Origin: Butyrivibrio sp.
GTDB taxonomy: Bacteria; Bacillota; Clostridia; Lachnospirales; Lachnospiraceae
Assembly: GCA_017615275.1 (NCBI GenBank)
Contig: JAGAAO010000064.1
Span: forward strand, 1-57,991
Reading direction: 5' to 3'
Length of the DNA: 57,991 bases
The notes beneath the pieces are model-generated. The model did no database searches. It was given only the letters and a program-made list of their open reading frames with translations, and was not told the DNA's origin. Positions 27,028 to 46,273 of this stretch are shown here, one piece after another. Numbering within the stretch: the stretch's first letter is position 1; the number at the start of each line of letters is the position of its first letter. Both the position numbers and the translations under genes were made by a program.

Positions 27028-27034
27028 CCACATT

Positions 27035-27259: not shown

Positions 27260-27326
27260 TTATCACTTTGTCATTTAATTATCAATATCAGTTGCATGAA
27301 TGGACGTTATTTTGTCATGAAAAGAC
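27260..27326 (-). promoter_or_regulatory. Tandem operator and sigma-28-type -10 upstream of KTR gene
   Basis: Operator half-sites on the plus strand are CATGAATGGAC (27295-27305) and CATGAAAAGAC (27316-27326), 21 bp apart. 27 nt further toward the gene is AGTGATAA (27267-27260, minus strand), a weak match to the sigma-28 -10. No good -35. It is the first of nine such sites across the cargo. Confidence 0.6.
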
Positions 27327-27372
27327 AAAATTGAGAATGTCATCTTTCTTTTACTCGCAAAACCTACAAAAC

Positions 27373-28410
27373 CTACAACATGGCCAGTCCAAAATAATCC
27401 ATTATCCAGTTTCTGTCACCTGGATTTTTTAAAGGAATTCCATTACTGTTCAAATATTTGTGAATTCTGGCTTTTCCTTCACTTAGCGAGTTGTCATAAT
27501 GACTATTCCGTTGTATTTCCATCACCAGTTTTGAGTCACTACTGTCATTCGTTTTTCGTAAGTTCTTTGAGACATATTTCTCAACAACAGTTTTTATCTC
27601 ATCAAGATTTGAGTACCCCCTAAGATCAGCCCTTGCCTCGCAGAATAAAAATGACCTTGATGGTACAAAATCATTTGCAACAACTCCGGAGTCATCCAGA
27701 CCCCTGTAGATATTTATTGTCTTCTGATTCCATACACCATTGTATGTAATTCCTCCATCTATAAACGTACTGCTCTTATCAATTGCGTCATAGTCAGGAC
27801 TTTCCATTCCGTACTGATCGGCCAGTTCGTTAAATGTATTCTTTACTATGTTCTGCATATCGGAATAAGCGTAGTAATAATCAGCATTGTAGTACATACC
27901 ACCCTTGAGATTACTGTAGTAATCCCCTGCGTCCTGCCTCAATCCAGTTTTGATATACAATTGCTCTGCTTCCCGGTAATTGTTTTCAGCTGCATATTGG
28001 GCATTGGCTCTTGAAATATGCTCATACATTGTAGATAACGCTTTTGAAATTCTTTCTTTGCTGACATTATTGAAGCTACAGGTTTTCTTTACATACGCTA
28101 CGACTTCATCAGCAGTTCTGCAACCGGAATAGTATTCCTTCATCACATCATCTGTTTCATGAAAAAGCTTATTCCAGCTTAAAAGTGGCATTTCAGCCAT
28201 TCTGCTCTTGATATCATTATAGTTTTCACAGGGAATGGGGGCTGAAGACACTACGGAAGCCTCATATCTATATAAAGATGTTTCTGTACCATCTTCATTA
28301 ATCCTGTTAAGGCCACCGTCATCTCCCTTTCTAAGAGTAACAGTTTCATAACTGTTCTTCTGATAATAGCTTAATTCGTATGTATCTGTCAGCCCCGTTT
28401 TCTGAATCAT
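27373..28410 (-). CDS. Cargo protein, unknown (YQ-type N-terminus)
   Basis: A 345-residue protein, not recognised. The N-terminus TYELSYYQKNSYETV places Tyr-Tyr-Gln at 15-17, the motif shared by most cargo proteins; no Sec signal or membrane segment is present. The centre is helical (YEHISRANAQYAAENNYREAEQLYIKTG) with many Tyr (GGMYYNADYYYAYSDMQNIV). The C-terminus ends GDRNWIMDYFGLAML. It lies 25 nt after the 28436 gene and is probably the end of a three-gene unit starting at 31220. Function unknown. Confidence 0.72.
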   Translation of the reverse strand: MIQKTGLTDTYELSYYQKNSYETVTLRKGDDGGLNRINEDGTETSLYRYEASVVSSAPIPCENYNDIKSRMAEMPLLSWNKLFHETDDVMKEYYSGCRTADEVVAYVKKTCSFNNVSKERISKALSTMYEHISRANAQYAAENNYREAEQLYIKTGLRQDAGDYYSNLKGGMYYNADYYYAYSDMQNIVKNTFNELADQYGMESPDYDAIDKSSTFIDGGITYNGVWNQKTINIYRGLDDSGVVANDFVPSRSFLFCEARADLRGYSNLDEIKTVVEKYVSKNLRKTNDSSDSKLVMEIQRNSHYDNSLSEGKARIHKYLNSNGIPLKNPGDRNWIMDYFGLAML

Positions 28411-28435
28411 AATAATTCTCCTGTATCATCCTGCG

Positions 28436-30466
28436 TCAAGCATTCTTTTTCTTCTGTAAAACTGCCCAGTTAGCCAGGTCAAGAAAATCATTTCTGGGTG
28501 TTCTTGCATTAACACGCTGCTCAGCCCACATATTATCCATGAAGTTACAGAACTCATCGAAAGAATAACGTTTGCTGCCATTGTCGTACATGTACCATCT
28601 GCTCGCTGCATTGGGATCTTGCTCAAGCAGTCTTTCTCTGGTGGACTTCCAGTTTTTGTTAAGCTCCTGTTGGTTGCTGGCAACCTTTTCACCCATCATT
28701 CTTATGAACTCATACCCATCCATAGCCTTCTGGATCTTGCCATTCTTCCAGTTTTCTTCAATAAGATTCTTAACATAATCAGAGGATGTCTCATCAACAT
28801 CTTCCGTTTTTTCTCCATGCTGAATCCAATCCTTAAATGATTCCTCGCTTATTTTTCCGCTTAAGTAGTCGGACCACTTTTCTTCATTTGAAAAGAAGCT
28901 CGAGCTGATTGAGTTATCAGCCATCCATGCCATAATAGATTGTGCTCTTTCATATTCTTCTTCACTTTGGAATTCTATCTCCCACTCTATTTCATGGGTA
29001 TCATTGTTAGTATATCGAATTCCATGTACATCCATGGAAATAAGACCAAACTTATTCTCTTCCTGCACATTAACCTTTGTTGTCTCCGAAACTGTCTTAT
29101 CCTTATCTCCAAGAAGCTTCTCCCATTCTTCATCAGTCAGGTCGCCCAGATCCTTGTCACCGCCCTGTGATAAAAAGAGATTACGGGTCTCTTCAAGCAT
29201 CTTTAGAACAACTGACGCATCAATGGTCTCACCAGTCTTCTCCTTAGTGAAAGAAACTTTGGAATCTGACAGGGCACTATTCCAATTCTGCTTCTTTGTC
29301 ATAGCCTCATCAAAGTTTGAGTAACTGTTTTCTGAAAGAGGGTCTATAACGCTTTTCATGGAATGGAAACTGCCAAAAGAGTCCGAGGTGCCTGTTCCAT
29401 GTGCATCGGCATACTGGCAATATGCAAACATCTCTATTACAGTAGCATTCTTGGGATCTACTTCATCAACGTTCACATCAATATCATGATCATGTACATG
29501 AACCCTGACTATCTTGTCATCAGAACCTGGCTTAATGACCTCTGAAGCAGTCATGACATAGCTGTTAATATTTCCGACAGGAATTGTTCCCATTCCATGG
29601 AGTGGTCTTACTTCCAGTTCTCCCAGATATTCTTCGCTCTCTTCTGGTTTATTATCTGTTTTTTCAGCACCACCAATTTCTCTTGTTCCTTCAAAGGTTA
29701 TTGACTGGAACCTAAAGCTGGTGCTCCCAAATGTACCAAAGCCTCCTGTATCTCCCCAGACTTTAGCACCATTAAAGCTTGTTGCTGTAACAGCAGGTTC
29801 CGGTGAGATGCCGGTTCCAATTCCCGATGTCATCATAACTTCCATAAGTCTGTTAATATGTGACAAAAGCTGCTCTGCTCCAAGTGTACTTACCCCCATG
29901 AGCTGATAGTTTTTGATTGAACCATCAAGCTCAGACATATAGTTCTTTTTCTCAAAAATATCATCAGGCGCAACACTATCCACAGCTCCCATAGCCTCAT
30001 CTGCCAGCCCTTCTGTATCCCTGATGTATGAGCAAAGCGCTGCAAACTCTGTAAAATCAGAGTCAGTTGGATCTACATTATAAGGGTCTATCTCCTTTGA
30101 AAACTCATTTCCGTTTTCATCGGTACCTGTGGCGGTATACTTTCTGGTGTCCCCATCTACATCTATTCTGATCTGGAACTGCTGCATTACTCCCTGATAG
30201 GAATAAGCCGTTTTTCCATCTGCTAGCTGCGTCGCACCAAATCCGGAGTTCCAGATATTTGCAGTAATAACGCGAGTATAGCCCTTCTTAGCAGATGTAT
30301 CTTCCTTAGCTACTGCGTCAGTAAGCTCCGGCGCTTCCTCATCCTTATCAAGAACTGCACTCTGAAAATCTCCGCTGCCAATAGTCTGGTTTGAATAATA
30401 GTGGGCACTCTGCACATACGCACTCTGGGTGTAATAATAATTTCCGTTTGTAATGGTATTTGACAT
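28436..30466 (-). CDS. Large cargo protein with at least two copies of the VDP repeat domain
   Basis: The ATG at 30466 follows AAAGGAACACTT; a longer start is rejected. About 676 residues without signal peptide. The N-terminus is Tyr/Gln-rich (NGNYYYTQSAYVQS). A domain near 107-153 (DENGNEFSKEIDPYNVDPTDSDFTE, then FAALCSYIRD) recurs near 318-358 (HDIDVNVDEVDPKNATVIEM, then FAYCQYADAHG). The same module occurs once in the 30603 and 31391 proteins. A third diverged copy may sit near 500. The C-terminal part is helical. It is an internally duplicated paralogue; function unknown. Confidence 0.75.
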   Translation of the reverse strand: MSNTITNGNYYYTQSAYVQSAHYYSNQTIGSGDFQSAVLDKDEEAPELTDAVAKEDTSAKKGYTRVITANIWNSGFGATQLADGKTAYSYQGVMQQFQIRIDVDGDTRKYTATGTDENGNEFSKEIDPYNVDPTDSDFTEFAALCSYIRDTEGLADEAMGAVDSVAPDDIFEKKNYMSELDGSIKNYQLMGVSTLGAEQLLSHINRLMEVMMTSGIGTGISPEPAVTATSFNGAKVWGDTGGFGTFGSTSFRFQSITFEGTREIGGAEKTDNKPEESEEYLGELEVRPLHGMGTIPVGNINSYVMTASEVIKPGSDDKIVRVHVHDHDIDVNVDEVDPKNATVIEMFAYCQYADAHGTGTSDSFGSFHSMKSVIDPLSENSYSNFDEAMTKKQNWNSALSDSKVSFTKEKTGETIDASVVLKMLEETRNLFLSQGGDKDLGDLTDEEWEKLLGDKDKTVSETTKVNVQEENKFGLISMDVHGIRYTNNDTHEIEWEIEFQSEEEYERAQSIMAWMADNSISSSFFSNEEKWSDYLSGKISEESFKDWIQHGEKTEDVDETSSDYVKNLIEENWKNGKIQKAMDGYEFIRMMGEKVASNQQELNKNWKSTRERLLEQDPNAASRWYMYDNGSKRYSFDEFCNFMDNMWAEQRVNARTPRNDFLDLANWAVLQKKKNA

Positions 30467-30602
30467 AAGTGTTCCTTTCTGCGGCTCATCTGTCATTCAA
30501 AGCCGCTCCACTCTCCTGAAAGGACCGAGTGGGTGCTACGTTTTTAGGTTCTTCACATTTAATCCTGGCCTCACCTTCCTTCATCATTTTCTATCCCTGG
30601 TA

Positions 30603-31220
30603 TTAAAGCCATTTAAGAAGATCCAACAATCCTTTCAGACCTCTTGGCGAAGCATTATTGTTCATATTTAACATAAGCTGCTGCTCGTACCAGCTCCTAA
30701 AGTTGATATTTGTACTCATATCCGCATCCGGTCTGCTATATTCCATCTTATGATGGGCAACCACAAGGTTCATCATCACATCCTTACTATCCAGCTTGCC
30801 CTCATCCTGAAGGTGTTGCATCCTCACGGATAGTTCTATAAAGTCACAGCTTGATGCATCTACTTTATCAACATCAATGTGCCTCTCTTCATATCTTCCA
30901 TCGTTAAACTTTAGCTTGACCGTATACTCAGAGTCTGTTCCTTCATCTCTGTAAACTTCTGCATCATATCCATATTTGCCGTCATACCAATGGAACGTAG
31001 GCTTTTTACTCTGCTGGTCATCTGCGATATCATTATCGTCGGAATTGATTCTGTTTTCTACGACATCTGCCTCATTTTCATAGGCTTTACTTTTCTCCAT
31101 CAGTTTTGTTGCAAAAGAATCTGAAATGGATTCTTTATTATTACTGTCTGGTGGTCTGTCGCTTATACGAACGCCCTGATAGAAGCTCGTCTGACTAAGA
31201 TACTGTACGTTTGTTACCAT
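30603..31220 (-). CDS. Cargo protein with one VDP repeat domain
   Basis: The ATG at 31220 follows AGAGGCAGGAAAAAT. About 205 residues, no signal peptide. N-terminus VQYLSQTSFYQGVRIS with Tyr14-Gln15. Residues 97-141 (EYTVKLKFNDGRYEERHIDV, then DKVDASSCDFIELSVRMQHL) are the repeat domain shared with the 28436 and 31391 products. It is the first gene of the unit that includes the 28436 and 27373 genes, with operator, sigma-28-type promoter and 40-nt hairpin upstream. The 137-nt gap before the next gene holds two short stems (GCGGCT/AGCCGC, CCACTC/GAGTGG). Confidence 0.75.
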   Translation of the reverse strand: MVTNVQYLSQTSFYQGVRISDRPPDSNNKESISDSFATKLMEKSKAYENEADVVENRINSDDNDIADDQQSKKPTFHWYDGKYGYDAEVYRDEGTDSEYTVKLKFNDGRYEERHIDVDKVDASSCDFIELSVRMQHLQDEGKLDSKDVMMNLVVAHHKMEYSRPDADMSTNINFRSWYEQQLMLNMNNNASPRGLKGLLDLLKWL

Positions 31221-31251
31221 ATTTTTCCTGCCTCTCTTAAAAAACACAAAT

Positions 31252-31291
31252 GCCGAATACCCCTAGACTTATCAATCCATTGATATCCGGC
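31252..31291 (-). promoter_or_regulatory. Conserved 40-nt 5' UTR hairpin, copy 1
   Basis: Minus strand GCCGGATATC pairs with GGTATTCGGC through G-U pairs; the inner TGGATT pairs with AGTCTA. Length, position just after the -10 box, and one 20-nt arm block (TCAATCCATTGATATCCGGC on plus) are the same as in copies at 32046 and 40327. Confidence 0.75.
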
Positions 31292-31307
31292 TGTTCCTTC
31301 ACTTTTT

Positions 31308-31375
31308 ATATCGGAAATAACACAGGTCATCTTATATTGACTGCATGAATAGTCGCTAAATAGTCATAATTGGAC
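31308..31375 (-). promoter_or_regulatory. Sigma-28-type promoter with tandem operator for the 31220 unit
   Basis: Minus strand TAAG (31334-31331), 15-nt spacer, TCCGATAT (31315-31308), close to the TAAA-N15-GCCGATAA consensus. Upstream by 28 nt is the operator: CATGAATAGTC (31344-31354) and CATAATTGGAC (31365-31375). Confidence 0.8.
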
Positions 31376-31390
31376 TATTAACACCCTTAT

Positions 31391-32017
31391 CTACATGAAT
31401 GCGTATGATTTCGTGTTTGCTCCAAAGAAATTCCGACTTTCTGAGAGTGCATCAAAAAACGCCTTAAACCGCAAATATCCCTGAGTATTTCCTATTGTGT
31501 ACTGCATCTGCATCATGTCACGCGCAAGCTCCATGAAATTTGCTGACCCCAGGCCGTCATAACTGGGATTCTTATCATAAATCTGACTCCTGCACATCAA
31601 AAAACTGTCAACAGCATTCTTACACTTTCCGCTATCTGACAGATATGCAGAATAGGCATGCATTTCAGCCGTGGTAGCATTACTTGGATCAACCTCAGAA
31701 ATCTTTACCATCTGCTCTGTTTTATTTCCATCTTTATCCCATACCTCTACCCGATACTCAGGATCACTCTCATCAAAATCTGCAGGCTTATAAATAACGG
31801 TATTTACTCCTGATCGCGCATCCACCCACGAACTAAGACACCTTGAGCCATCCGTAGGTGTTTTATCATAGTGAAGTGTAAGGCCTTCTGATGAGGAAAT
31901 TGTTGATATACCCTTTCCTCCAATAGCATTCTTAAAATCCCAGTTTTCTGCTTTATTTGTCTTTGATTCATTAATCCCCTGGTAAGAATATGTATTATCA
32001 ACTGCTCCTATTCTCAT
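31391..32017 (-). CDS. Cargo protein with one VDP repeat domain
   Basis: The ATG at 32017 has AAAGGGGAAATGGCA upstream; longer starts are rejected. About 208 residues, no signal peptide. N-terminus MRIGAVDNTYSYQGINES has Tyr12-Gln13. The repeat domain is at 87-133 (YRVEVWDKDGNKTEQMVKIS, then EVDPSNATTAEMHAYSAYLS). The C-terminal part is helical (FMELARDMMQMQYTIGNTQG). A monocistronic unit with its own operator, promoter and hairpin. Function unknown; paralogous to the 30603 product. Confidence 0.75.
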   Translation of the reverse strand: MRIGAVDNTYSYQGINESKTNKAENWDFKNAIGGKGISTISSSEGLTLHYDKTPTDGSRCLSSWVDARSGVNTVIYKPADFDESDPEYRVEVWDKDGNKTEQMVKISEVDPSNATTAEMHAYSAYLSDSGKCKNAVDSFLMCRSQIYDKNPSYDGLGSANFMELARDMMQMQYTIGNTQGYLRFKAFFDALSESRNFFGANTKSYAFM

Positions 32018-32045
32018 TGCCATTTCCCCTTTCAATATACAAAAT

Positions 32046-32085
32046 GCCGGATATCCAGGATTGTCTCAATCCATTGATATCCGGC
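32046..32085 (-). promoter_or_regulatory. Conserved 40-nt 5' UTR hairpin, copy 2
   Basis: Perfect 10-bp outer stem GCCGGATATC/GATATCCGGC, with inner stem GGATTG/CAATCC around AGA. It is the most regular of three copies and starts about 17 nt after the -10 box, so it should cap the 5' end of the mRNA. Confidence 0.8.
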
Positions 32086-32101
32086 TGTTCCATCAATTCT
32101 A

Positions 32102-32170
32102 TTATCGAAAAAAGCACCTGTAATCTTTATATTTATGTCATGAATAGACGTTATAATGTCATGAATCGCA
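32102..32170 (-). promoter_or_regulatory. Sigma-28-type promoter with tandem operator for the 32017 gene
   Basis: Minus strand TAAA (32129-32126), 16-nt spacer, TTCGATAA (32109-32102). Operator half-sites CATGAATAGAC (32139-32149) and CATGAATCGCA (32160-32170), 21 bp apart, 29 nt upstream of the -10. Confidence 0.8.
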
Positions 32171-32175
32171 TATGC

Positions 32176-32787
32176 TTAATCATTTACTATAGTTGTCGGT
32201 CTGCACCTGTCCAGACTGTTCTTAGGTATTCTCACAAAAACATCAGCTATACCTTTATCAAGTTGGGTTCCGGAAACTTCACGGATGATACTTATTGCGT
32301 TCTGATGAGTTCTTTCACCCTCATAGGCTCTCTTCATCGTAATAGCAGAATAAGTATCCGTTATGGCTATAATTCTGGAAGCTGTAGGTATATCTTTTCC
32401 CTTTAAATGATAGTACCCTCTGCCATCAATTCTCTCATGATGGTATAATACCCATTTTGCGATTTCGGAAGGGATCCCGATATTATCAAGAGCTCTGGCC
32501 CCAAGCTCAGGATGAGTTCGTATTATCTCCCATTCTGCTTCATCAAGTTTTGCCGGTTTATATAGTATGGCTCTGGGTATTTCAAGTTTCCCTATGTCAT
32601 GCATGAGAGCAGCAACCTCCAGATCCACAGGATCAACCTTACATCTGTATACTTCCGGTAAAGTAGCATAAAGAGTCATGGTAAGTTTTTGGACATGCAT
32701 GCTATGCCACAGCACTTCATTGTCATCAAAGCAAGCATATAAATTCTCTATCCTATTCTTCCACTCCAACGCTTGTAGAATACTCAA
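32176..32787 (-). CDS. HD-GYP-like phosphodiesterase
   Basis: A 203-residue single-domain protein. First His in WHSMHVQKLT, HD in ALMHDIGKLEIP, then THPELGARAL, and VLYHHERIDGRGYYHLKGKDIP in place of the canonical HHERxDGxGYP (Tyr for Pro at the end). HD-GYP proteins hydrolyse cyclic di-GMP. No receiver domain. It is 40 nt after the GHKL kinase gene and the third gene of the 34812 operon. It gives the locus a possible link to c-di-GMP control of motility; activity is inferred. Confidence 0.85.
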   Translation of the reverse strand: MSILQALEWKNRIENLYACFDDNEVLWHSMHVQKLTMTLYATLPEVYRCKVDPVDLEVAALMHDIGKLEIPRAILYKPAKLDEAEWEIIRTHPELGARALDNIGIPSEIAKWVLYHHERIDGRGYYHLKGKDIPTASRIIAITDTYSAITMKRAYEGERTHQNAISIIREVSGTQLDKGIADVFVRIPKNSLDRCRPTTIVND

Positions 32788-32827
32788 TTTCTAAAATTAC
32801 CCCTTAGGAAAAGCGTAAAATACTGCA

Positions 32828-34105
32828 TCAGATCATTACTACCGCACTAAATTCCTGATCATTGCAAGATATTGCGAAGCTGCCATCATACTTACTTGCC
32901 ACGTGTTCCACATTGGTAAGTCCGATCCCATGACCTGCCGAATTATCCCCCTGAACCTTATTGTCAATAATATCAACTCTCCGGATTACAGGATTTTTTA
33001 CCATAATAATTATGTTTCCATCCTTCTCAACAAATTTAACCTGTATTGAAGCCATTCTACCGGCTGAGATTACTTTTTCACATTCATGAATGGCATTCTC
33101 AAGAAGATTTCCAAGAAGAACTACAATATCCTCATCGGATATACGGATGCTTTTAAGATCGCTTACTGCAAATGTCATTCCGATATTCTTTTCCTTGGCA
33201 ATACGATACTGCTGGTTTAGAACAGCGTTTACCACAGGATGACCAACATTGACCTCCGCAATTTCGACAGAAATACTCTTAGTGAGCTGTTCCACATACT
33301 CTGTAGCTGCACTAATATCTCCGCTGTTTAATAATTCCTGCACAATGCCAAGCTGCTTTTTATAATCATGGAGTTTTCTTCCCTGTCGTTCATACAAGGA
33401 CTGCATATCCCTGAATGCCTGTAGCTGATTCTGCTTACTTTCGATTTGTACCTCAGACAGCCTTATCTTCTCGTCTTTAATCATTAGTTCCTGTAACGCG
33501 AACAAGGCTGCGACATTTCCAATAAGCAACACCGCAGAAACAAACGTTTCAAATGGTCCCATAAGCGCTTGTGTGAAAAAAGAACCATAATACAAACCGG
33601 CAATAACACCTGCAAATGGCAACCATATAAATTTCAAAAGCTGATTTGTAGGTCTTTTTAGCAGTTGTTTTATCGCAGACATTTTCCATTTTAAAAGGCC
33701 TATGATAGCAATCCTGATCATATATGAACAACTCATTCCAAGTAAAGAAAGCCACCTATTCTTATCATCATATGTAAACTGAAGTATCCCGATCATTATT
33801 GTTTCTGCTAATACCATAAATGTAGTGTTGATGCTTGCAACAAATACAGCTGTAATAACATTTGATTTGTAGCATACCTTCAAAAACACTATAAAAACAA
33901 ACATCAATATCAGCAATTTCAATGCAAAATTTGTAGAGAAAGCTTCAACCAAAAGCGCGTTTCCAACAATCGCGACATATAATGGCACACCGGAAACATA
34001 TTTCCTGACTGAGTTCCATTTATGGCTAAGGAATATGTCAAACAACCGCATGCTTGTAATCGCTTCAATCACACCAGATGCCAAAAAGAAAAACCATGCT
34101 ATCAT
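32828..34105 (-). CDS. AgrC-like GHKL sensor histidine kinase (system B)
   Basis: A 425-residue protein. The first 215 residues hold about six or seven membrane segments (SGVIEAITSMRLFDIF, LLILMFVFIVFLKVCY, FVSAVLLIGNVAALFAL). The His box is RKLHDYKKQLGIVQEL, the N box LLGNLLENAIHEC, the G box GHGIGLTNVEHV. This is the GHKL class used for peptide quorum sensing. It overlaps the LytTR gene upstream by 4 nt. No AgrB or clear AgrD gene is in the window, so the signal is unknown. Confidence 0.88.
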   Translation of the reverse strand: MIAWFFFLASGVIEAITSMRLFDIFLSHKWNSVRKYVSGVPLYVAIVGNALLVEAFSTNFALKLLILMFVFIVFLKVCYKSNVITAVFVASINTTFMVLAETIMIGILQFTYDDKNRWLSLLGMSCSYMIRIAIIGLLKWKMSAIKQLLKRPTNQLLKFIWLPFAGVIAGLYYGSFFTQALMGPFETFVSAVLLIGNVAALFALQELMIKDEKIRLSEVQIESKQNQLQAFRDMQSLYERQGRKLHDYKKQLGIVQELLNSGDISAATEYVEQLTKSISVEIAEVNVGHPVVNAVLNQQYRIAKEKNIGMTFAVSDLKSIRISDEDIVVLLGNLLENAIHECEKVISAGRMASIQVKFVEKDGNIIIMVKNPVIRRVDIIDNKVQGDNSAGHGIGLTNVEHVASKYDGSFAISCNDQEFSAVVMI

Positions 34106-34812
34106 ATCCGATCCCCCGCATAGAGAGCGAACTCATTTCTTACTTCTTTGTATCTCCCCCGCGGAACAGGTAACTCCCTGCCGTCATCCAAAGTCAGGAC
34201 ATAGTTATTAATGCTTCTAACGTGATCCATGTTTACAAGAAAACTGTTATGAATACGGAGAAATCCGTGCGGTTTAAGCTGTCCCTCCATATCATCCAGC
34301 TTCTTATATATCTGGTAGGTCTGATTACTCAAATTGATAATATTCTTATGTCCTGCAGTTTCTACCAGTAAAATGTCCGCTGCTTTCAGGCAGACGTCCC
34401 CACCCACACATGAAAACATTATCTTACTGGATCTTCTGTGCTTGTCACTGCAAATATCGTCCATGCACTCAAAGATAGTCTTATCCAGATCGTCCTTTAT
34501 CAGGAACCGACTTGCTCTTACTTTATAACCATCAAGAGCATAATTCATGTATGCAGTAACAAGGATTATCGGAACATCTTCCATATCCATTCTGATTTCC
34601 TTTGCTACAGCAAGTCCATCCATTCCTTCCATGTTTATATCAAGGAAAATGGCATCTGTGTCGGAATCTGTTTTTAGCGAGTGAAGCAGCTCAGATCCCG
34701 ATTTATACTCAGAAAAAGAAATGCCAATTCCTGCCTTTTTATCATATTCTTCAATCAGCTTCTCCAATCTTTCTATATCCCTTATATCATCATCACATAT
34801 TGAAATGTTCAT
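34102..34812 (-). CDS. LytTR response regulator (system B)
   Basis: A 236-residue protein. The receiver domain (1-120) has ICDDDIRDIE and phospho-acceptor Asp in IFLDINMEGMDG. The LytTR DNA-binding domain (about 140-235) has VETAGHKNIINLSNQTYQIY, PHGFLRIHNSFLVNMDHVRS and DGRELPVPRGRYKEVR. It is first in the operon with the GHKL kinase and HD-GYP gene and carries one of the nine operators 68 nt upstream, so autoregulation is likely. Confidence 0.9.
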   Translation of the reverse strand: MNISICDDDIRDIERLEKLIEEYDKKAGIGISFSEYKSGSELLHSLKTDSDTDAIFLDINMEGMDGLAVAKEIRMDMEDVPIILVTAYMNYALDGYKVRASRFLIKDDLDKTIFECMDDICSDKHRRSSKIMFSCVGGDVCLKAADILLVETAGHKNIINLSNQTYQIYKKLDDMEGQLKPHGFLRIHNSFLVNMDHVRSINNYVLTLDDGRELPVPRGRYKEVRNEFALYAGDRI

Positions 34813-34844
34813 AAAACACCTTCTTTCAAGTTCTACTAATAATG

Positions 34845-34911
34845 ATATCGGATATTTTATGAATATAAAGACATGGCAGCATGAATCGACTTCAAAATGG
34901 CATAAATCGGC
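34845..34911 (-). promoter_or_regulatory. Tandem operator and sigma-28-type -10 for the LytTR-B operon
   Basis: Minus strand TCCGATAT (34852-34845), no good TAAA at -35 (TCTT instead). Operator CATGAATCGAC (34880-34890) and CATAAATCGGC (34901-34911), 27 nt upstream. The poor -35 fits a promoter that needs the activator. Confidence 0.72.
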
Positions 34912-34973
34912 GGTAATACATTAAAAATCAAGAAGGCACTCCTTTGGTGGAATGCCTTGACGATTTCCAAAGC

Positions 34974-35954: not shown

Positions 35955-35988
35955 ATGTTTTTACCTCGTCTGCGCCTGCCTGCTAAGA

Positions 35989-36750: not shown

Positions 36751-36794
36751 AAAAAACACCTCCTTCTATGGACGTACATTTTGTTTCAATTCAA

Positions 36795-38264: not shown

Positions 38265-38289
38265 AAAAAGTCTAGCTCCCCCTCTAAAT

Positions 38290-39054: not shown

Positions 39055-39135
39055 TTACAGACACCTCTTTTATCCACAAACCAAAAATGCTTAGCATGGA
39101 GCCCCATGTAAGCACTTTTGACTTTAGCACCATAT

Positions 39136-39208
39136 TTATCATAACATCATAGAAATTATCGTTTACACAAGGATGTAATGAATGGACATTTTTTTGTCAT
39201 GAATGGTC
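39136..39208 (-). promoter_or_regulatory. Tandem operator for the LytTR-A operon
   Basis: Operator AATGAATGGAC (39177-39187) and CATGAATGGTC (39198-39208), 21 bp apart. The -10 is less clear: TATGATAA (39143-39136, minus) is 33 nt away rather than 26-29, so this promoter may be sigma-A type or differently spaced. Confidence 0.6.
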
Positions 39209-39326
39209 AAGAATTAAATTGCCTCCAACTCATCACTGTTACCACCATGTTTTCTACCCTCCATGCTCTATATTTTATATATCGAGTTCAACTATTGTTT
39301 ATGTCGAACAAATCAATCAGCTATTG

Positions 39327-40301
39327 TCAGATAAGACCACCGCTTGTTTCATCCAGTTGTCTTTCACGTAATGCACGCAAGGAATTACTTCCTTCATCTT
39401 CATATAGCATTAGAAGAGTAAGATAATTACCACTCTTCTTACATTCACCCAAGAGACATCTCATGCTTTCTGATGTTCTGCCAAACATCATTCCCAGAAG
39501 TCCCATATCATAGTAACTCTGTTTATCACTCAGAATTCCCTGTTCATGAAGATCTTCCATAAGCCCGTTTATCCTTACTTCTTTTCCAATCTCCTGAGCT
39601 CTGTTATACAGATCAGGATCTACTCGCCTTAAATAGTCCAAATATCGGGTCTCAATATTCCTGTTTGGTGTACCACTCATTATCCAATTAGATATGTCTT
39701 CAAGTGACGCTCCCACCTCATAGTCCTGGATTAGATTCATCCGTACTCGTCCTGATTCATCAGTAGTAAATGTATATTTACCATCTTCGGAATACATGGT
39801 TGAAGAGCCAGGGTACTTGGGCATTGCTTCCTGTTTAACCAAAACTTCAAATGCATCATTAACCTTTCTGTATGCTTCCTTAGGGCTATCATCGTCTGTC
39901 ACTGTCACTTTCCCCGCTGATACAGCTATCTGTAATAATTCATAATCAGTCACATTTCTTCCATGATAATAATATTGCTTATTATCTTTTAATTGTTCAT
40001 ATACAGACGGAAGGGATGTGCTTTTGACAGCGGACTCATCACTACCTGACCACTCAGCCGCTTCTTTGCATCCTGCAGTTCTCTTTCTGATACTTGGTCC
40101 GTTTGTTATGGCTGTTCCATACTTGTCAACCAGCATATGCTCAGTAATCGTCACTGAAGCAAATTCAAAAAGACTACCTTTGTTCGATGTATTACCATAT
40201 CCAGAAACCTTGTATGAATATGGAAAACCACCACTTTTTCTTTCACTTCTTAAAGCTGAATATGTACCTGAATAGGGAATACCTCTGTTGTGAACAATCA
40301 T
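39327..40301 (-). CDS. Cargo protein, unknown
   Basis: A 324-residue protein, start with CGGAGGTCATTAA. N-terminus MIVHNRGIPYSGTYSALRSE, no signal peptide; the Tyr-Gln motif is absent here. The middle holds a strand-rich part (MYSEDGKYTFTTDESGRVRM, then NLIQDYEVGASLED) and the C-terminal third is helical (YLDYLRRVDPDLYNRAQEIG, MGLLGMMFGRTSESMRCLLG). It has its own operator, best-match sigma-28-type promoter and hairpin. Function unknown. Confidence 0.72.
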   Translation of the reverse strand: MIVHNRGIPYSGTYSALRSERKSGGFPYSYKVSGYGNTSNKGSLFEFASVTITEHMLVDKYGTAITNGPSIRKRTAGCKEAAEWSGSDESAVKSTSLPSVYEQLKDNKQYYYHGRNVTDYELLQIAVSAGKVTVTDDDSPKEAYRKVNDAFEVLVKQEAMPKYPGSSTMYSEDGKYTFTTDESGRVRMNLIQDYEVGASLEDISNWIMSGTPNRNIETRYLDYLRRVDPDLYNRAQEIGKEVRINGLMEDLHEQGILSDKQSYYDMGLLGMMFGRTSESMRCLLGECKKSGNYLTLLMLYEDEGSNSLRALRERQLDETSGGLI

Positions 40302-40326
40302 TTAATGACCTCCGATAATAACAAAT

Positions 40327-40366
40327 GCCGAACATCCATGAATTTTTCAATCCATTGATATCCGGC
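40327..40366 (-). promoter_or_regulatory. Conserved 40-nt 5' UTR hairpin, copy 3
   Basis: GCCGGATATC pairs with GATGTTCGGC (two G-U pairs), and inner TGGATT pairs with AATTCA. Same length and position as copies 1 and 2 while the right arm has changed, so pairing is maintained. Confidence 0.75.
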
Positions 40367-40385
40367 AAATCCTTTGCTGATATTA

Positions 40386-40453
40386 TTATCGGAAAAAGTA
40401 TTGTTTTGTTTATAGAAACGTCACAAATAGACGGTCATAATGCATGAATGTTA
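40386..40453 (-). promoter_or_regulatory. Sigma-28-type promoter with tandem operator for the 40301 gene
   Basis: Minus strand TAAA (40412-40409), exactly 15 nt, TCCGATAA (40393-40386): the closest match in the window to the FliA/SigD consensus. Operator CACAAATAGAC (40422-40432) and CATGAATGTTA (40443-40453), 28 nt upstream. Confidence 0.82.
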
Positions 40454-40460
40454 TCTATGC

Positions 40461-40658
40461 CTATATGTCTATCGACGAAGCACTTGTCATCTGTGGCGCA
40501 GGAACAGAAACTCTTATACTCTGGGGGACTGAAAGTGTTGTTGCCAAAGAACTTCCGCTGCCACCTCCCATGCCTTGCATAGACGCATTCTTCGCAAGCT
40601 CATGCTTTATCATATTCTTGAGATATTCCGTGCTTAGTTTATTTTGAAATACGAGATT
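40461..40658 (-). pseudogene. Truncated duplicate of the C-terminus of the 41129 gene
   Basis: Directly in frame after the TAA of the 40659 gene, 65 codons continue to a TAG at 40461-40463. They read TEYLKNMIKHELAKNASM, then a Gly/Ser run and SVPQSIRVSVPAPQM, clearly matching the end of the 41129 product (MEYLKDMIKHELAKNASMPS, SLPQSIGISVSAPQM). No ribosome site or full start is seen. It is a partial tandem-duplication remnant, or a rare read-through tail of the 40659 protein. Confidence 0.75.
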
Positions 40659-41090
40659 TTAATACACTGACGAATGCTCACGCCTATATGACTCAGTTGT
40701 CTTTAACAACAATTCTGCATTAACCTGATTTAGCTCTGCTTCTATCTGCTGGCGTTTAGCTTCGTCAGCTGTACGCAGCTTCTGCTCAAGCTCAGCCTTC
40801 TTTTCTTTAAGTCTTTCTATCTCTTTATCCACAGAATCTGTATCTGTAGTTGTCTTTTCTGCCTTAGCTTCCTTATCTTTCTTCAGCGCAGCCATACCTT
40901 CCTCTGAAATAGACAAAGCACTTTCCTGGCGTTGCTGCTTCCTACTGGCCACAAATGCTGCTGCACCCTGAGCATCGCCTTCAGCGATATACTTCCCTTC
41001 AGTCTTTACTTTTTCAATCATAGCCTTGGCTGTAGGCTGACTTGTCAGATAATCAAGTTCTGCTTTTGATACATCAGTGAGAATACGCAT
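40659..41090 (-). CDS. FlxA-like coiled-coil cargo protein
   Basis: The ATG at 41090 follows GGAGGACGATATT. About 143 residues, beginning MRILTDVSKAELDYLTSQPT. The C-terminal half is a coiled coil (VDKEIERLKEKKAELEQKLR, TADEAKRQQIEAELNQVNAE) like FlxA-family proteins; E. coli flxA is itself a sigma-28-dependent gene. It is the last intact gene of the five-gene unit beginning at 44943. Followed without break by the duplicated C-terminal remnant. Confidence 0.72.
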   Translation of the reverse strand: MRILTDVSKAELDYLTSQPTAKAMIEKVKTEGKYIAEGDAQGAAAFVASRKQQRQESALSISEEGMAALKKDKEAKAEKTTTDTDSVDKEIERLKEKKAELEQKLRTADEAKRQQIEAELNQVNAELLLKTTESYRREHSSVY

Positions 41091-41128
41091 AATATCGTCC
41101 TCCACTATTTATGTTTACATAAAAACCT

Positions 41129-42223
41129 CTATGCCTGTATATCTATTGTGGGAGCCTGCATCTGTGGTGCAGAAACAGAAATCCCGATGCTTTGTGGCAA
41201 TGAAACAGATGTTGCAGAGGAAATCCCGCCACCTCCCATGCTGGGCATTGAAGCATTCTTTGCAAGCTCATGTTTTATCATATCCTTAAGATATTCCATG
41301 TTTGCTTTCATGATAGCCTTGTCTTCAGATGCGCGGTGTTTACGTTTAAGGTCTTCTAAATCCGCTTTACTCATATGCGGATCGACCACTTCCATGGTCT
41401 CCATTAGTTCCATGGCTTCTTCAAGCTCTTTTAGTTCTTCCTCTCCGAATTCGGAGATCATCTCATTCAGCTCTTTTAACTCTTCTTCAGAAAAAGAGGC
41501 TTCTCCTTCCTGCATCTGCTGGAGTGCAACATCAAGCATCTCTTCACGGGCATCAAATATGGCATCTTCCTTCTCAGTGATTTTTTCTTCTTCGGCAGAA
41601 GCAAGTGCGCTCTGCATCTGTTGTCCTACGTCTCGCTGATTTTCAAGTTTTTCATCCCTGCTCTGGGTGCGCTCTACCATTTCTTCCAGTTCAAGGTGAT
41701 GCTGCTTTTTCCGGGCAACCATTTCCATGCGTTTTGCATGGGTAAGCGCAAGCTGTAATTCTTCCGGATCACCGTTTCCTGAAGATATCTTTCTTTTTAT
41801 CTTTAAGGTCTCCCTTTTTGCTGCAAGGACGGCCTGTCCTGCGCTTATGGAAGTCTTTGCCCTCTGGATTTTGGAAGCTACTGTCTTGTAATTATATTTT
41901 TCGGAAGTATCTATCTCTTCCTCTTCTGCAGCATCAGGAGATCCTGACAACTCAGAAAAACCATTAACCTTATCCTTTGATGTCTTCGAAGCATACTGTT
42001 CCTGCTTCAAATCTCTGATCATCTGTCGCATCTGTTGTGAGATGGAAGCCTTATCTTCTGTTACCTTGTTCGCAAATTTAGAAAGAGGATTTGCTGATGC
42101 ATCTTTTCCAGGCGCAAAAGGAGAGTTGCTCCCAGCAGTCTTTTGCTGCGAGTTCTGCCCCATAAGAGTGCCTTTTTGATAAAAAGACGAATATGGACTT
42201 TGTGTATTAAACGATATATTCAT
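41129..42223 (-). CDS. Long coiled-coil cargo protein (YQ-type N-terminus)
   Basis: The ATG at 42223 follows GGGAGGAACGATA. About 364 residues. N-terminus MNISFNTQSPYSSFYQKGTL has Tyr15-Gln16 and no signal peptide. Residues 100-300 are highly charged helices (VLAAKRETLKIKRKISSGNG, FSEELKELNEMISEF-type heptads). The C-terminus is MIKHELAKNASM, a Gly run and SLPQSIGISVSAPQM, which is duplicated at 40461-40658. Fourth gene of the 44943 unit. Function unknown. Confidence 0.75.
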   Translation of the reverse strand: MNISFNTQSPYSSFYQKGTLMGQNSQQKTAGSNSPFAPGKDASANPLSKFANKVTEDKASISQQMRQMIRDLKQEQYASKTSKDKVNGFSELSGSPDAAEEEEIDTSEKYNYKTVASKIQRAKTSISAGQAVLAAKRETLKIKRKISSGNGDPEELQLALTHAKRMEMVARKKQHHLELEEMVERTQSRDEKLENQRDVGQQMQSALASAEEEKITEKEDAIFDAREEMLDVALQQMQEGEASFSEEELKELNEMISEFGEEELKELEEAMELMETMEVVDPHMSKADLEDLKRKHRASEDKAIMKANMEYLKDMIKHELAKNASMPSMGGGGISSATSVSLPQSIGISVSAPQMQAPTIDIQA

Positions 42224-42245
42224 TATCGTTCCTCCCATCCATATA

Positions 42246-42899
42246 TCAGCTATGTATCTTTTCTAAAATACTGTTCCATAACCTCTCCTGCGCTTCCTTG
42301 TCTTTATCCTGCTTAGATTGGAGCAGCTTGATCTCATCAGTAGAAATAACAATCGACTTTCTGTTATTTCTCATGTGATAATCATGATTCTCAGGCATTC
42401 CTGAAGACTTAACATAAATATCCACTTCGGGATCTTCGTTATGTATTCTTTCAAAGATATCACCATAAGCCCAGTTATATGCCTTGGCATAGACTTTAAA
42501 CTTTTCGCTTGGATCAGAATCATTATCAGCAGTTTGCTCTGCTTTTAAAAGATCATTATACGAAGTGCGGTCTGTATCCTTCATTCTGCTCCGAATATCA
42601 TAGTACTCTTCAAGCCTGAAGCTTTTTAGAATACACGTTTCATCTTCTGAAAGGTTAAACTTTTTGTAACCCCCATCAAGTTGAACAATGGATTCCTTAA
42701 GAGCAGCCTCTCTTCCGGCACGATCCATCTGCGCAGCTCCTGATGATGAGATTGAAAGTGTGGCTGCCACATCTGAATCAAAGGCATTGGAAACAGTGCC
42801 ATCCTGCTTTGAAGCAGCCAGCTTGTCTTTTATTTCCAACTGCATTCCCTGTAAATAGTTTTCAGTTTTATTGATTCCAATAGAATCAATTCCGTTCAT
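42246..42899 (-). CDS. Cargo protein, unknown
   Basis: A 217-residue protein starting MNGIDSIGINKTENYLQGMQ (Tyr15, Gln17), site GTAGGAGGACATGACTT. No signal or membrane segment. Segments: TLSISSSGAAQMDRAGREAA, then DTDRTSYNDLLKAEQT and IHNEDPEVDIYVKSS. Predicted mixed helical. Third gene of the 44943 unit, 22 nt before the 41129 gene. No family recognised. Confidence 0.72.
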   Translation of the reverse strand: MNGIDSIGINKTENYLQGMQLEIKDKLAASKQDGTVSNAFDSDVAATLSISSSGAAQMDRAGREAALKESIVQLDGGYKKFNLSEDETCILKSFRLEEYYDIRSRMKDTDRTSYNDLLKAEQTADNDSDPSEKFKVYAKAYNWAYGDIFERIHNEDPEVDIYVKSSGMPENHDYHMRNNRKSIVISTDEIKLLQSKQDKDKEAQERLWNSILEKIHS

Positions 42900-42980
42900 A
42901 AGTCATGTCCTCCTACTTTGAGGTATATGTTATGTGTCTGAACGTTACTTTCACAATTTTTGTAAATCTCTATATGCGTT

Positions 42981-43862
42981 TTATCCCTTGAAGTCCACCC
43001 TTGTACCAACTGCTCTTTCGGTATCTGTCATTACTCTTGAAGCTGCATTGTTATAAGAATATGTCTGTACCTTGGAAAGAAGATCATCCAGGGAATTTGC
43101 CTCTATGATTTCAAACTCTTCATCCTCATAAATGTCCGTATCATCTTTGTCTTTTGTCTTCTCAGCCTTACTGTCTTTTGCCTTATTTATGCGTTCTTCC
43201 TGAGCTTTTTTCTCGGCTTTCTTCTTTTCCTTTATCTTCTGTTCTTTCTTCTCAGCAGCCTTCTTCTCTATACGCTTTTTCTGAAGATCCTGAGATTTAC
43301 CAACCGTGGCAAAGAAGCTCTCTTTTCCGTTTGAATCTACGGACATTCCGAAGTTCTTTGCGTTAGAGCCGCTGCTGGAAAGTCCCATCTTTGCCTGCAT
43401 CATCTTGGCCTGGGAGGATGCAATAATACCCTCATACTTCTTGCGGAACGACTCATCGGTGGCCATGCGCTCAAGCTTCTCTTCATCGATCAGGACAACC
43501 ATTTTATTGGCATTGCCATATGCGGCTGCGTTCTGCTGCACCTGAGCCTTCATGTCCTTGCTGACAGTAATAAACTCCATGCCATGGAACTTGGACTGAA
43601 GCTTTCCAAGATAATCCTTCGCCTTGTCAGAAAGCTGGACGTCACCTATTGTCATACCATATTCTGTCTTGGTTGGTACAAGAGATGATTTTGTATCGAT
43701 AGGAGACCAGCCTTTTGTTTCCACCTTTGCCTGTGACCCCTTAGTGGCTGCAGTCTGATCACTTTTAGCTGTGCTCTGTGTTTTAGTGTCATTATTCACT
43801 GTGCTTTTGCTATATGCCTGTGAAGTCTGCTGATAAGCTGATACGCCATATAAACCTGCCAT
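42981..43862 (-). CDS. DUF6033-like cargo protein
   Basis: A 293-residue protein starting MAGLYGVSAYQQTSQAYSKS (Tyr10-Gln11), no Sec signal. The part TEYGMTIGDVQLSDKAKDYL, LQSKFHGMEFITVSKDMKAQ and NKMVVLIDEEKLERMATDES is a compact domain that I recall as DUF6033 in Lachnospiraceae; the number is from memory. A Lys/Glu-rich coiled coil (200-245) and an acidic linker follow. Second gene of the 44943 unit. The recurring SAYQQTS start is like that of many family members, which suggests a shared targeting signal. Confidence 0.75.
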   Translation of the reverse strand: MAGLYGVSAYQQTSQAYSKSTVNNDTKTQSTAKSDQTAATKGSQAKVETKGWSPIDTKSSLVPTKTEYGMTIGDVQLSDKAKDYLGKLQSKFHGMEFITVSKDMKAQVQQNAAAYGNANKMVVLIDEEKLERMATDESFRKKYEGIIASSQAKMMQAKMGLSSSGSNAKNFGMSVDSNGKESFFATVGKSQDLQKKRIEKKAAEKKEQKIKEKKKAEKKAQEERINKAKDSKAEKTKDKDDTDIYEDEEFEIIEANSLDDLLSKVQTYSYNNAASRVMTDTERAVGTRVDFKG

Positions 43863-43908
43863 GTTAATCCCTCCATTTCTGCTTCCAAAGAATTCGGAAG
43901 TACCTTTC

Positions 43909-44943
43909 TCAGATCTGACTGTCTATTGATGTTCCTTTTATATCATTTGATAAAAGACTCAGTCTGTTAAGTATATTGGTAATCTCTGTATTCACAGCAT
44001 TCTGGGTATCTTCCATGGATGTAGCATCGGAAATAATCGTCTTTTCTACATCACCAAGATCCATCCTGTTTGCATCTTCACGCTCACGTCTGGCAACCGC
44101 CTTTTTGATATCAGCACTGGTCCTTCCGCTTTCAGCAGCATGTTCCTTGATGTTTTCTATCATTTCCTGCTGCGCTGCCTCTTTCTCAAGCTTCTTGGCC
44201 TCTTCCTTCTTTTCTTCTTTCTTTTTTTCGGAAGCTTCTTTTGCAGCTTCTTCGCGCTCCTCCTGCTCTTCATCGACATGTTCTACAGCTTCCTGTGTCA
44301 AAAGAGCTATCGTCTCGCCATTTGCTGCTTCCATAATGTCCTCAGCAGCATCCTGGGCTTTAAGCATATCCTGGGACTTGGCACGCTCTGATTTCATGTC
44401 AGCATAACCCTGAACATTAGCCATCTGCATGGCTTTTGCATGATCTATGTCAAGCGAGTTCTGTTGGTTTGTAGTCACATAGTAAAGAGCCTTCTGTTGA
44501 TATTCCGAGAGCCTGCTCATTTCTTCGTCAGAAACTCCTACATTTGGATTTCTCATCTTTGCAGCCAGTACCGACAATTCTTTGTGCTCTTTGCTATCCG
44601 GATCAATGCCATATTCTTCCTGGAGTTCTTTTAGCTTGGCATCATTTTCTCTTGTATCAGCACTCTTCTCATTGATCTCATCCTGCAGGCGCTTTATCTC
44701 ATCCTTGATTCCCTGCATCTGTGCGTCAAGTTTCTTTTCTCCGTCAAAAGCATCGGACACGACTTTAAGAGCCTGCTTCTTTGCAAGGCCCTGTCTCTGA
44801 GCTATCAGGCTATCTCCTGTGAGATTTGCTCCTGATATCGTTGTGCTGTTTTTATTATTAGTATGTGATTTAGACGCAGAATTTACGCCGGTCTGATCCT
44901 GTAAAAAGTTATTCTGCACTTCCATGTTCTGCTGTATCTTCAT
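43909..44943 (-). CDS. Coiled-coil cargo protein, first gene of its unit
   Basis: The ATG at 44943 follows AAGGAGGTGCTTC; a start eight codons earlier is rejected. About 344 residues. N-terminus MKIQQNMEVQNNFLQDQTGV (Phe13, Gln15), Asn/Ser/Thr-rich to residue 45. Then long charged helices: QMQGIKDEIKRLQDEINEKS, and a Glu/Lys/Ala run near 230-260. The end ITNILNRLSLLSNDIKG is hydrophobic-heptad. No signal peptide. It heads the five-gene unit 44943-40659 and has operator and promoter. Function unknown. Confidence 0.74.
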   Translation of the reverse strand: MKIQQNMEVQNNFLQDQTGVNSASKSHTNNKNSTTISGANLTGDSLIAQRQGLAKKQALKVVSDAFDGEKKLDAQMQGIKDEIKRLQDEINEKSADTRENDAKLKELQEEYGIDPDSKEHKELSVLAAKMRNPNVGVSDEEMSRLSEYQQKALYYVTTNQQNSLDIDHAKAMQMANVQGYADMKSERAKSQDMLKAQDAAEDIMEAANGETIALLTQEAVEHVDEEQEEREEAAKEASEKKKEEKKEEAKKLEKEAAQQEMIENIKEHAAESGRTSADIKKAVARREREDANRMDLGDVEKTIISDATSMEDTQNAVNTEITNILNRLSLLSNDIKGTSIDSQI

Positions 44944-45068
44944 GAAGCACCTCCTTGTGACATCCAAATGAACATAATTACAGCTTTCTACTTATATATC
45001 GACTTAAAATAAAACAATCTTAACCCTTTGGATTGAAAAACTTGCTAAATATTGTTTTCCTAATCTTC

Positions 45069-45137
45069 ATATCGGTTCTGCATAGTTCCCATTAAAGAAC
45101 ACTTGCATGAATAGACGTTATTATGTCATGAAAAGAC
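45069..45137 (-). promoter_or_regulatory. Sigma-28-type promoter with tandem operator for the 44943 unit
   Basis: Minus strand TTAA (45095-45092), 15 nt, ACCGATAT (45076-45069). Operator CATGAATAGAC (45106-45116) and CATGAAAAGAC (45127-45137), 29 nt upstream; this is the most regular operator of the nine. The 5' UTR is longer (about 120 nt) and lacks the 40-nt hairpin. Confidence 0.8.
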
Positions 45138-45170
45138 ATTTTCCGGTGTCAATATGTAGCCATTAGGCAA

Positions 45171-45563
45171 TTACCTGCTTAAAACCGTCCATAAAGTGTA
45201 AACTGACCAATAGTTCTCTGATTCCAAGGATATAGTTTTCTTGCCATCAGAGAATAAATATACACTTCCTGCTTGCTCTTGAAACTCAAGACCACTACTG
45301 TCAGAAATATATTGTAGTAATTCCTGACACTCACCACGTCGTGAAATGTATACTGGTCCTTCAGCTTCTTCATTCACCTTTACGTAGGGGTATTCCTCAG
45401 TAATTGCTGTTGCAGCATGTAAGTATGGAAGTGGATTTCCTTTCTGAAAAATCTCTGATGAATAGTAAAAGAATAATGTTCCGATAGCTACCACTACTCC
45501 AGTTATCACTATCATAATTGTTCTTAATGGCTTTGTTTTCTTGCTCTTGTATAGATTATTCAT
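45171..45563 (-). CDS. Small membrane protein partner of the lipoprotein
   Basis: The ATG at 45563 overlaps the upstream stop (ATGAATAA) with GGAG seven bases before, so it is preferred over a longer frame. About 130 residues: a membrane segment near 13-33 (TIMIVITGVVVAIGTLFFYY), then an outer domain with AITEEYPYVKVNEEAEGPVY and QAGSVYLFSDGKKTISLESE. Not recognised. Translationally coupled to the lipoprotein gene at 45556, and under the ninth operator. Confidence 0.68.
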   Translation of the reverse strand: MNNLYKSKKTKPLRTIMIVITGVVVAIGTLFFYYSSEIFQKGNPLPYLHAATAITEEYPYVKVNEEAEGPVYISRRGECQELLQYISDSSGLEFQEQAGSVYLFSDGKKTISLESENYWSVYTLWTVLSR

Positions 45564-46152
45564 CAACGAACTCCATATGCCCTGTGTCATAACCACAATC
45601 TATTTTCACCTTTTTTATTTCATGATCTGACTCCCCAGATGTCGGGACAGGATATGTAAAATATAGTGTATTTTCTTCCCATGAAAAATATGGTTCATCA
45701 GTTGACGTTGCTGTGTAGAACCATTCTTCAAATATACAATTTATATTTCTGTCAGTGCCATTAATTGTGTCATTTAATATGATCCCATTAGCACCTTTTT
45801 CTTTACTGATTATTCCATATGCCCTATATCTTCCGGTAGGATCTTCTGCCATATCTACGAGAATATCTGCATCTTCTTTAAATTCTATCGTATTATTCCA
45901 GGGCACCGGTTTATACTCATATTCATTTAAAACCCGGTCAATAACAGCGCTGTAACTATTATCAGCAGGTTGATCATTGTCATATTCTATACATTCTTCA
46001 TCTTTCTTTTCCGCCATAAACACAGCTGTTGGGCCATCAGTAGTGTCGATTCCAAGTTTTTCAAAATCAATTGTCGGCTCTTCCTTTGCCCCACAGCCGA
46101 ATAGCAACATAATTGAAACAACTCCCAATAATACAATTCCATATTTTCTCAT
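45556..46152 (-). CDS. Lipoprotein under LytTR-type control
   Basis: The ATG at 46152 has TTGGAGAATGAAT upstream. About 198 residues: lipoprotein signal with lipobox LLFGC, then an outer domain (NSYSAVIDRVLNEYEYKPVP, DPTGRYRAYGIISKEKGANG, YFSWEENTLYFTYPVPT). No family recognised. It is the only cargo unit with classical Sec/lipoprotein export. It has the ninth operator 90 nt upstream. Confidence 0.72.
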   Translation of the reverse strand: MRKYGIVLLGVVSIMLLFGCGAKEEPTIDFEKLGIDTTDGPTAVFMAEKKDEECIEYDNDQPADNSYSAVIDRVLNEYEYKPVPWNNTIEFKEDADILVDMAEDPTGRYRAYGIISKEKGANGIILNDTINGTDRNINCIFEEWFYTATSTDEPYFSWEENTLYFTYPVPTSGESDHEIKKVKIDCGYDTGHMEFVDE

Positions 46153-46207
46153 ATATTCATTCTCCAAAAATTTTTTAGTAATTGTTCTAAATCTTCACAT
46201 TTTCATT

Positions 46208-46273
46208 ATATCGCTGTAGTCACTCTCCAATCATTACAATGCATGAATAAACTATAAAATAACATAACTGGTA
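46208..46273 (-). promoter_or_regulatory. Tandem operator and sigma-28-type -10 for the lipoprotein unit
   Basis: Minus strand AGCGATAT (46215-46208) without a good -35. Operator CATGAATAAAC (46242-46252) and a weaker CATAACTGGTA (46263-46273), 26 nt upstream. The least conserved of the nine. Confidence 0.6.

Follow-up and report, generated by a model that had tools for sequence, protein, structure and literature searches.

VirR of Clostridium perfringens belongs to the LytTR family. This response regulator is associated with VirR boxes, two imperfect direct repeats that lie immediately upstream of the -35 element and in which helical phasing matters, and its regulon is partly plasmid-borne (PMC2838878). 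In Streptococcus mutans, the LytTR systems HdrRM and BrsRM autoactivate via direct repeats 11–13 bp apart that are located 4–11 bp upstream of the -35 element; both the regulator operon and the target promoters have direct repeats (PMC6193735). In Clostridioides difficile 027, an agrA mutant under-expresses most flagellar genes, including fliA and flgM (PMC3754575), and in Chlamydia the activator GrgA serves promoters of two kinds via direct contact with both sigma factors (PMC8409740). Here, we describe a stretch of 57,991 nt from the rumen bacterium Butyrivibrio sp. (contig JAGAAO010000064.1; hereafter, the window), which carries part of a putative integrative conjugative element with nine direct-repeat operators. 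It appears probable that a LytTR two-component system of this element uses sigma-A to activate its own operon and the sigma-28 of the host to activate the cargo genes.

The locus resembles the VirR system in having direct repeats that immediately precede the -35 element, a response regulator and targets on mobile DNA (for VirR, partly on a plasmid), but the VirR targets named in the available part of that source are toxins and regulatory RNAs rather than flagellum-linked genes, and sigma-28 is not mentioned in that part (PMC2838878). As with HdrRM and BrsRM, direct repeats occur at the regulator's own promoter and at targets; unlike here, the partner in those systems is a membrane inhibitor and not a receiver/GHKL kinase pair, and the string 'flagell' occurs 0 times in the available text (PMC6193735). 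AgrA of C. difficile is likewise a LytTR regulator tied to flagellar genes, but it acts on the whole regulon and from an agr locus, and a sigma-28 promoter bearing a LytTR operator is not described in the accessible portion of that paper (PMC3754575). The likeness to GrgA, as far as the source at hand goes, is that one activator serves both sigma-A-type and sigma-28-type promoters (PMC8409740). A literature search of titles and abstract openings yielded no description of a LytTR regulator at sigma-28 promoters. The VirR box motif differs from the operator motif of the window, and GrgA is not a LytTR protein. To our knowledge, sequence-specific activators of flagellar sigma promoters have rarely been described.

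On the gene strand, the orientation used here for all operator sequences, the operator consensus is GTCxATTCATGAC-N8-GTCxATTCATGxC, a 32-bp direct repeat with a 21-bp period. All nine sites listed in a previous sequence-only reading are present (Table 1), and each faces a minus-strand gene, as had been claimed. When weight matrices were built by leaving one site out, every operator ranked 3rd to 10th among all window positions on both strands; with the full matrix, trained on the nine, the operators scored 27–44 and the best other position in the window scored 8. The nine operators are real and lie far above chance. In the genome of the strain itself (3.18 Mb in 99 contigs, 85% complete), a search with one pattern and up to 3 mismatches gave 6 matches, all confined to the window, and the reversed control gave 0; the remaining three window sites differ from the search pattern by more than 3 mismatches. 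With up to 2 mismatches, the pattern matched 25 sites in the genus, spread over 14 of the 61 genomes searched (the window's own among these 61), and the reversed pattern matched none. Allowing 3 mismatches in four genomes gave 12 sites versus 5 control matches, and this threshold is therefore noisy.

A CGATA-type -10 element had been proposed behind eight of the nine operators; exact CGATA was found 26–29 nt after the operator 34-mer in seven. The chance of an in-frame CGATA is 0.0045 per site, giving P = 1.2e-15 for 7 or more of 9, for a frame picked after the sites had been seen. With no frame chosen, CGATA lies anywhere within 70 nt at 8/9 sites versus 0.070 per site (P = 4.7e-9). The two exceptions to the in-frame position have sigma-A-like -10 elements and precede the LytTR2 gene and the gene for a cysteine-rich (Cys-rich) KTR protein: at 39177, CGATA is 13 nt away and the usual distance is taken by TATGAT, a sigma-A-like sequence, and at 27295 GTGATAA stands instead of CGATA.

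The comparative set comprised 52 operator sites differing in sequence, many of which are orthologues and hence not independent. CGATA at 26–30 nt after the 34-mer was found at 24 of these 52 sites, sorted by gene class. The element follows the operator before FliD-like genes at 9/9 sites, LytTR1 genes at 4/4, c214a and c214b at 3/3 each, and c352, c324 and c686 at 1/1 each, followed by the lipoprotein gene (1/3), other genes (1/8), DUF6033 (0/1) and EFh326 (0/2), with CGA variants, and LytTR2 (0/12) and KTR (0/4). The claim that the operators are joined to sigma-28-type promoters needs refining, as the LytTR2 and KTR promoters are without CGATA. LytTR2 promoters keep the sigma-A-like pattern tgatg-ta--aTAAAta (13 sites), and the operator geometry is the same at this regulator promoter and at the sigma-28-like cargo promoters.

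The flagellin promoter of the genus was read as GGGTTAA-N17-CGATA, mostly GGGTTAAG-N16, in 11 of 20 loci examined; among the other loci, 7 gave no start codon, 1 gave a false start and 1 was without CGATA. The CGATA elements behind the operators match the -10 of these flagellin promoters, which agrees with the sigma-28-type -10 suggested earlier, and judged by sequence CGATA is the flagellar -10 of the genus. The proposed TAAA-like -35 elements proved weak: the GG of the genus flagellin -35 is found at 0/9 sites, as is the whole flagellin-type -35 (GGTTAA) at operator-linked promoters of the window. Among 43 other operator sites, GGTTAA at the right spacing was found only in L066, the instance in L072 being out of frame. 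The best -35 candidate lies at flagellin spacing at 36832, 40422 and 45106 and is off by 1–2 nt at the other four CGATA promoters. The cargo promoters retain the flagellin -10 and roughly its spacing but no longer have the GG in the -35, a loss that would be expected were an activator to take the place of that element.

A promoter with the full flagellin consensus, which had escaped the sequence-only reading, is located at 44997–45025. In 843,656 strand-bases (the window and 20 loci), 4 matches to the strict pattern G[GT]TTAA-N14-19-CGATA were found, namely before the c352/DUF6033 operon of the window, the DUF6033 gene on the chromosome of the genome that the window comes from (L071), a c369 homologue (L075) and, as an operator-linked promoter, a c686-like open reading frame (ORF) in L066. 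As operators or DUF6033 genes had served to select these loci, cargo genes are over-represented among them. FliA was found over the cut-off in 34/36 same-genus relatives and also in Butyrivibrio sp. CB08; neither FliA nor FlhA turned up in the window's own bin (85% complete), which holds six flagellin-domain genes. Sigma-28 is available to the element in its host genus.

Several observations weigh against sigma-28 at the cargo promoters. The strict promoter form is absent in 12/13 DUF6033 loci and in 6/6 c352 homologues outside CB08, the cargo promoters have weak -35 elements, and the LytTR2 and KTR promoters are sigma-A-like at identical geometry. The last two points would suit ordinary sigma-A promoters behind every operator, with extended spacing as with other LytTR activators and with CGATA as the chance look of a degenerate -10. 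This explanation is unlikely, since in-frame exact CGATA (24/52 sites) follows gene class and is not randomly spread, and it equals the genus flagellin -10, and two cargo families have full flagellin-type promoters for which no operator was found (L071, L075). The chromosomal DUF6033 gene, with its strong sigma-28 promoter and no operator found, can also be read differently: such a bare promoter presumably works without an activator, so that LytTR binding at CGATA promoters could repress flagellar cargo transcription rather than activate it. We regard repression as highly unlikely; degraded -35 elements, as found here, are a feature expected of activator-dependent promoters, and the site ends upstream of the -35, where VirR and other LytTR proteins sit as activators in the parts of the sources available (PMC2838878, PMC6193735).

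It is also conceivable that CGATA is read by the sigma factor encoded on the element itself, whose relatives in two related elements (L056, L069) are 53–56% identical. We give this idea hardly any credence: only region 4 was found in the protein, with no region 2 for reading a -10, the CGATA promoter also occurs in L060–L063 with no such gene within the ~20 kb fetched, and the -10 equals that of host flagellin genes. Activation of cargo through host sigma-28 remains our preferred explanation.

Both regulators encoded in the window match PF00072 (receiver) and PF04397 (LytTR) over the cut-off, and the receiver aspartate is conserved in 16/16 aligned regulators. In 11 Butyrivibrio loci fetched by the LytTR2 protein and not by the operator, an operator was found 153–162 nt before the gene in 11/11, and a second one past GHKL2 in all 8 loci that extend that far. 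Nine of the 11 loci are on contigs also found by the operator search, so the genomes overlap while the search is independent. All LytTR2 relatives in named genomes (11 loci) are from Butyrivibrio. These data support the assignment, by sequence, of the operators to the LytTR system encoded beside them, and operator 6 is probably autoregulatory for LytTR2. The earlier proposal that both LytTR regulators act as activators requires refinement: only LytTR2-GHKL2 recurs in small and large modules, and LytTR1-GHKL1 was seen only in larger elements (the window, CB08, G011 and G007). These are the elements with many operators, and LytTR1-GHKL1 itself lies behind an operator-CGATA promoter, which would fit LytTR1 as the activator at cargo sites and LytTR2 merely as its inducer. 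We consider this arrangement rather unlikely, as L060–L063, with no LytTR1 in the stretch fetched, still have the operator before LytTR2 and the FliD-like gene. The attribute 'quorum-type' found no support: no AgrB was found among the 20 cargo-region proteins scanned, small AgrD-like ORFs lying outside that scan.

Part of the cargo itself points to the flagellum. The FliD-like protein matches PF07195, the C-terminal FliD domain, with 26.7 bits versus a cut-off of 25.4, and this family matches 9/9 aligned FliD-like members at E up to 1; at the same E limit, none of the nine gave a match to PF02465, which we take to be the N-terminal FliD domain. Together with its structural model, this suggests that one cargo protein is FliD-D1-like. 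DUF6033 was found in 58/180 genomes of the host's family and is confined to FlhA-bearing genomes (57/57; 179 genomes sampled), and some of its copies follow flagellin-type promoters. It appears in no paper of the literature searched. The combination of quorum and motility control had been regarded as an oddity; some cargo proteins are themselves flagellum-linked, which had not been seen, and sigma-28 control is therefore less odd than suggested. The HD-GYP-like protein at 32176–32787 has GYY where the HD-GYP motif presumably has GYP, and may be linked to cyclic di-GMP.

Within the cargo, 40454–40635 and 41128–41303 cross-match with ~76% identity over 182 columns (versus the CB08 copy), the 3' end of c369 being repeated downstream of c148, probably as a remnant of duplication. 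A conserved leader hairpin, GCCGGATATCAAnGGATTGA...GATATTCGGC, was found in 11 sequences, mostly between a cargo promoter and its gene (31240–31295, 32034–32089 and 40315–40370 on the minus strand; also L056, L058, L061, L069 and L070). It is 99% paired with one-sided changes only, and its 5' arm and loop seem more conserved than pairing demands. Between promoter and gene, the LytTR2 leader at about 39075–39125 (minus strand) and its relatives contain a recurring, strong hairpin that resembles a terminator (AAAATGCTTACATGG..CCRTGCTAAGCATTTTT) and might act as an attenuator.

The window begins with chromosomal genes (rpoD, dnaG, HD phosphohydrolase), followed by the tyrosine integrase, a MazF-like gene and the cargo, and then by a BlaI/M56 pair, relaxase, MobC, CD1107-like, NlpC/P60 and TraG-type ATPase genes; it stops inside the transfer region and does not cover the whole element. 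Compared with CB08, positions 23038–28444 and 29074–46271 are 97–98% identical and 48273–57854 are 90% identical, whereas the aligning chromosome stretches (1050–12701) show 68–78%; 12702–23037 gave no alignment to CB08 at the limit used. The simplest reading of this difference is a recent exchange between species, and the claim of a mobile element was borne out. Based on the integrase, relaxase, mating-pair ATPase and signs of recent transfer in the sequence, the region can be assigned to the integrative conjugative elements. Tn1549-like elements have a tyrosine integrase, relaxase, CD1107-like protein, TraG-type ATPase, NlpC/P60 and Cys-rich KTR protein, as here; their cargo is a resistance operon, whereas here it is a LytTR/sigma-28 gene set.

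The near-identical CB08 element lacks the segment 46271–48273, which includes most of the BlaI/M56 pair and looks like a recent insertion or loss. The KTR gene (27035–27217) has a LytTR operator with a non-CGATA promoter in four related sites, and the cargo regulator may through it act on the element too. An Rfam pemK leader RNA was annotated at 25052–25129 (minus strand), upstream of the MazF-like gene.

Table 1. Positions of the operators, promoter elements and genes in the window
Feature	Position	Strand	Remark
Operator 1	27295–27326	-	faces Cys-rich KTR gene; without CGATA (GTGATAA)
Operator 2	31344–31375	-	before c214a
CGATA (-10) of operator 2	31309–31313	-	
Operator 3	32139–32170	-	before c214b
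CGATA (-10) of operator 3	32103–32107	-	
Operator 4	34880–34911	-	before LytTR1-GHKL1
CGATA (-10) of operator 4	34846–34850	-	
Operator 5	36832–36863	-	overlaps 3' end of GHKL2 gene; before FliD-like/EFh operon
CGATA (-10, GACGATAC) of operator 5	36796–36800	-	identical in 9 sites
Operator 6	39177–39208	-	before LytTR2
Sigma-A-like -10 (TATGAT) of LytTR2 promoter	39138–39143	-	
Operator 7	40422–40453	-	before c324
CGATA (-10) of operator 7	40387–40391	-	
Operator 8	45106–45137	-	before c352/DUF6033 operon
CGATA (-10) of operator 8	45070–45074	-	
Flagellin-type sigma-28 promoter GGTTAAG-N17-CGATA	44997–45025	-	between operator 8 and its operon
Operator 9	46242–46273	-	before lipoprotein gene
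CGATA (-10) of operator 9	46209–46213	-	
GHKL1 sensor kinase	32828–34105	-	
LytTR1 response regulator	34102–34812	-	
GHKL2 sensor kinase	36831–38264	-	
LytTR2 response regulator	38290–39054	-	conserved partner of operators
c345 cargo protein	27373–28410	-	no family
c686 cargo protein	28436–30496	-	no family
c214a cargo protein	30603–31247	-	no family
c214b cargo protein	31391–32035	-	no family
HD-GYP-like protein (HD_5)	32176–32787	-	in operator-driven region
EFh326, EF-hand-like cargo protein	34974–35954	-	motif identified by eye; Pfam EF-hand did not reach cut-off
FliD-like cargo protein	35989–36759	-	FliD_C over cut-off; model aligns best to flagellar cap
c324 cargo protein	39327–40301	-	no family
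c352, DUF6033 (42981–43862), c217, c369, c148	40659–44967	-	read as one operon
Lipoprotein-like cargo protein, 203 aa	45556–46167	-	
Tyrosine integrase	23181–24290	-	
Element-borne sigma factor	25371–25982		sigma-70 region 4 only
Cys-rich KTR protein (PF14205), 60 aa	27035–27217	-	element backbone gene
Relaxase	48726–49907	-	
TraG P-loop/VirB4-like conjugation ATPase	53953–56412	-	

For the activation of cargo through host sigma-28, we infer binding, activation, transcription starts, sigma-28 use in vivo and export along the following lines. The element would supply the two-component system, consisting of the GHKL2 kinase and the LytTR2 regulator. Active LytTR2 would bind the direct repeats 21 bp apart, with about 40 bp separating the end of the repeats from the transcription start downstream. 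LytTR2 would aid sigma-A RNA polymerase both at its own promoter and at the Cys-rich KTR gene, so that the system would feed back on itself. At the cargo promoters, with the same operator position, a poor -35 and a good CGATA -10, it would recruit RNA polymerase with sigma-28 (FliA), so that production of the cargo would require both the signal and a host at the late flagellar stage. The FliD-like protein, DUF6033 and others without a hydrophobic N-terminal segment would probably be exported by or attached to the host flagellum. More tentatively, and with more doubt than belief on our side, the set could form a private, signal-gated late flagellar regulon, in which LytTR contacts the sigma-28 holoenzyme when it activates the cargo and sigma-A when it activates its own promoter, and the cap-like D1 protein, DUF6033 and their relatives leave via the flagellar export channel, altering the flagellum surface or tip to the benefit of the element.

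The co-occurrence of DUF6033 with FlhA in the sampled genomes and the flagellin-type promoters at some of its copies provide a first lead on this family. An operator coupled with a flagellar sigma signature would be an unusual route for tying mobile DNA into the motility programme. If this is true, mobile DNA could couple its cargo to the motility stage of the host by promoter architecture alone.
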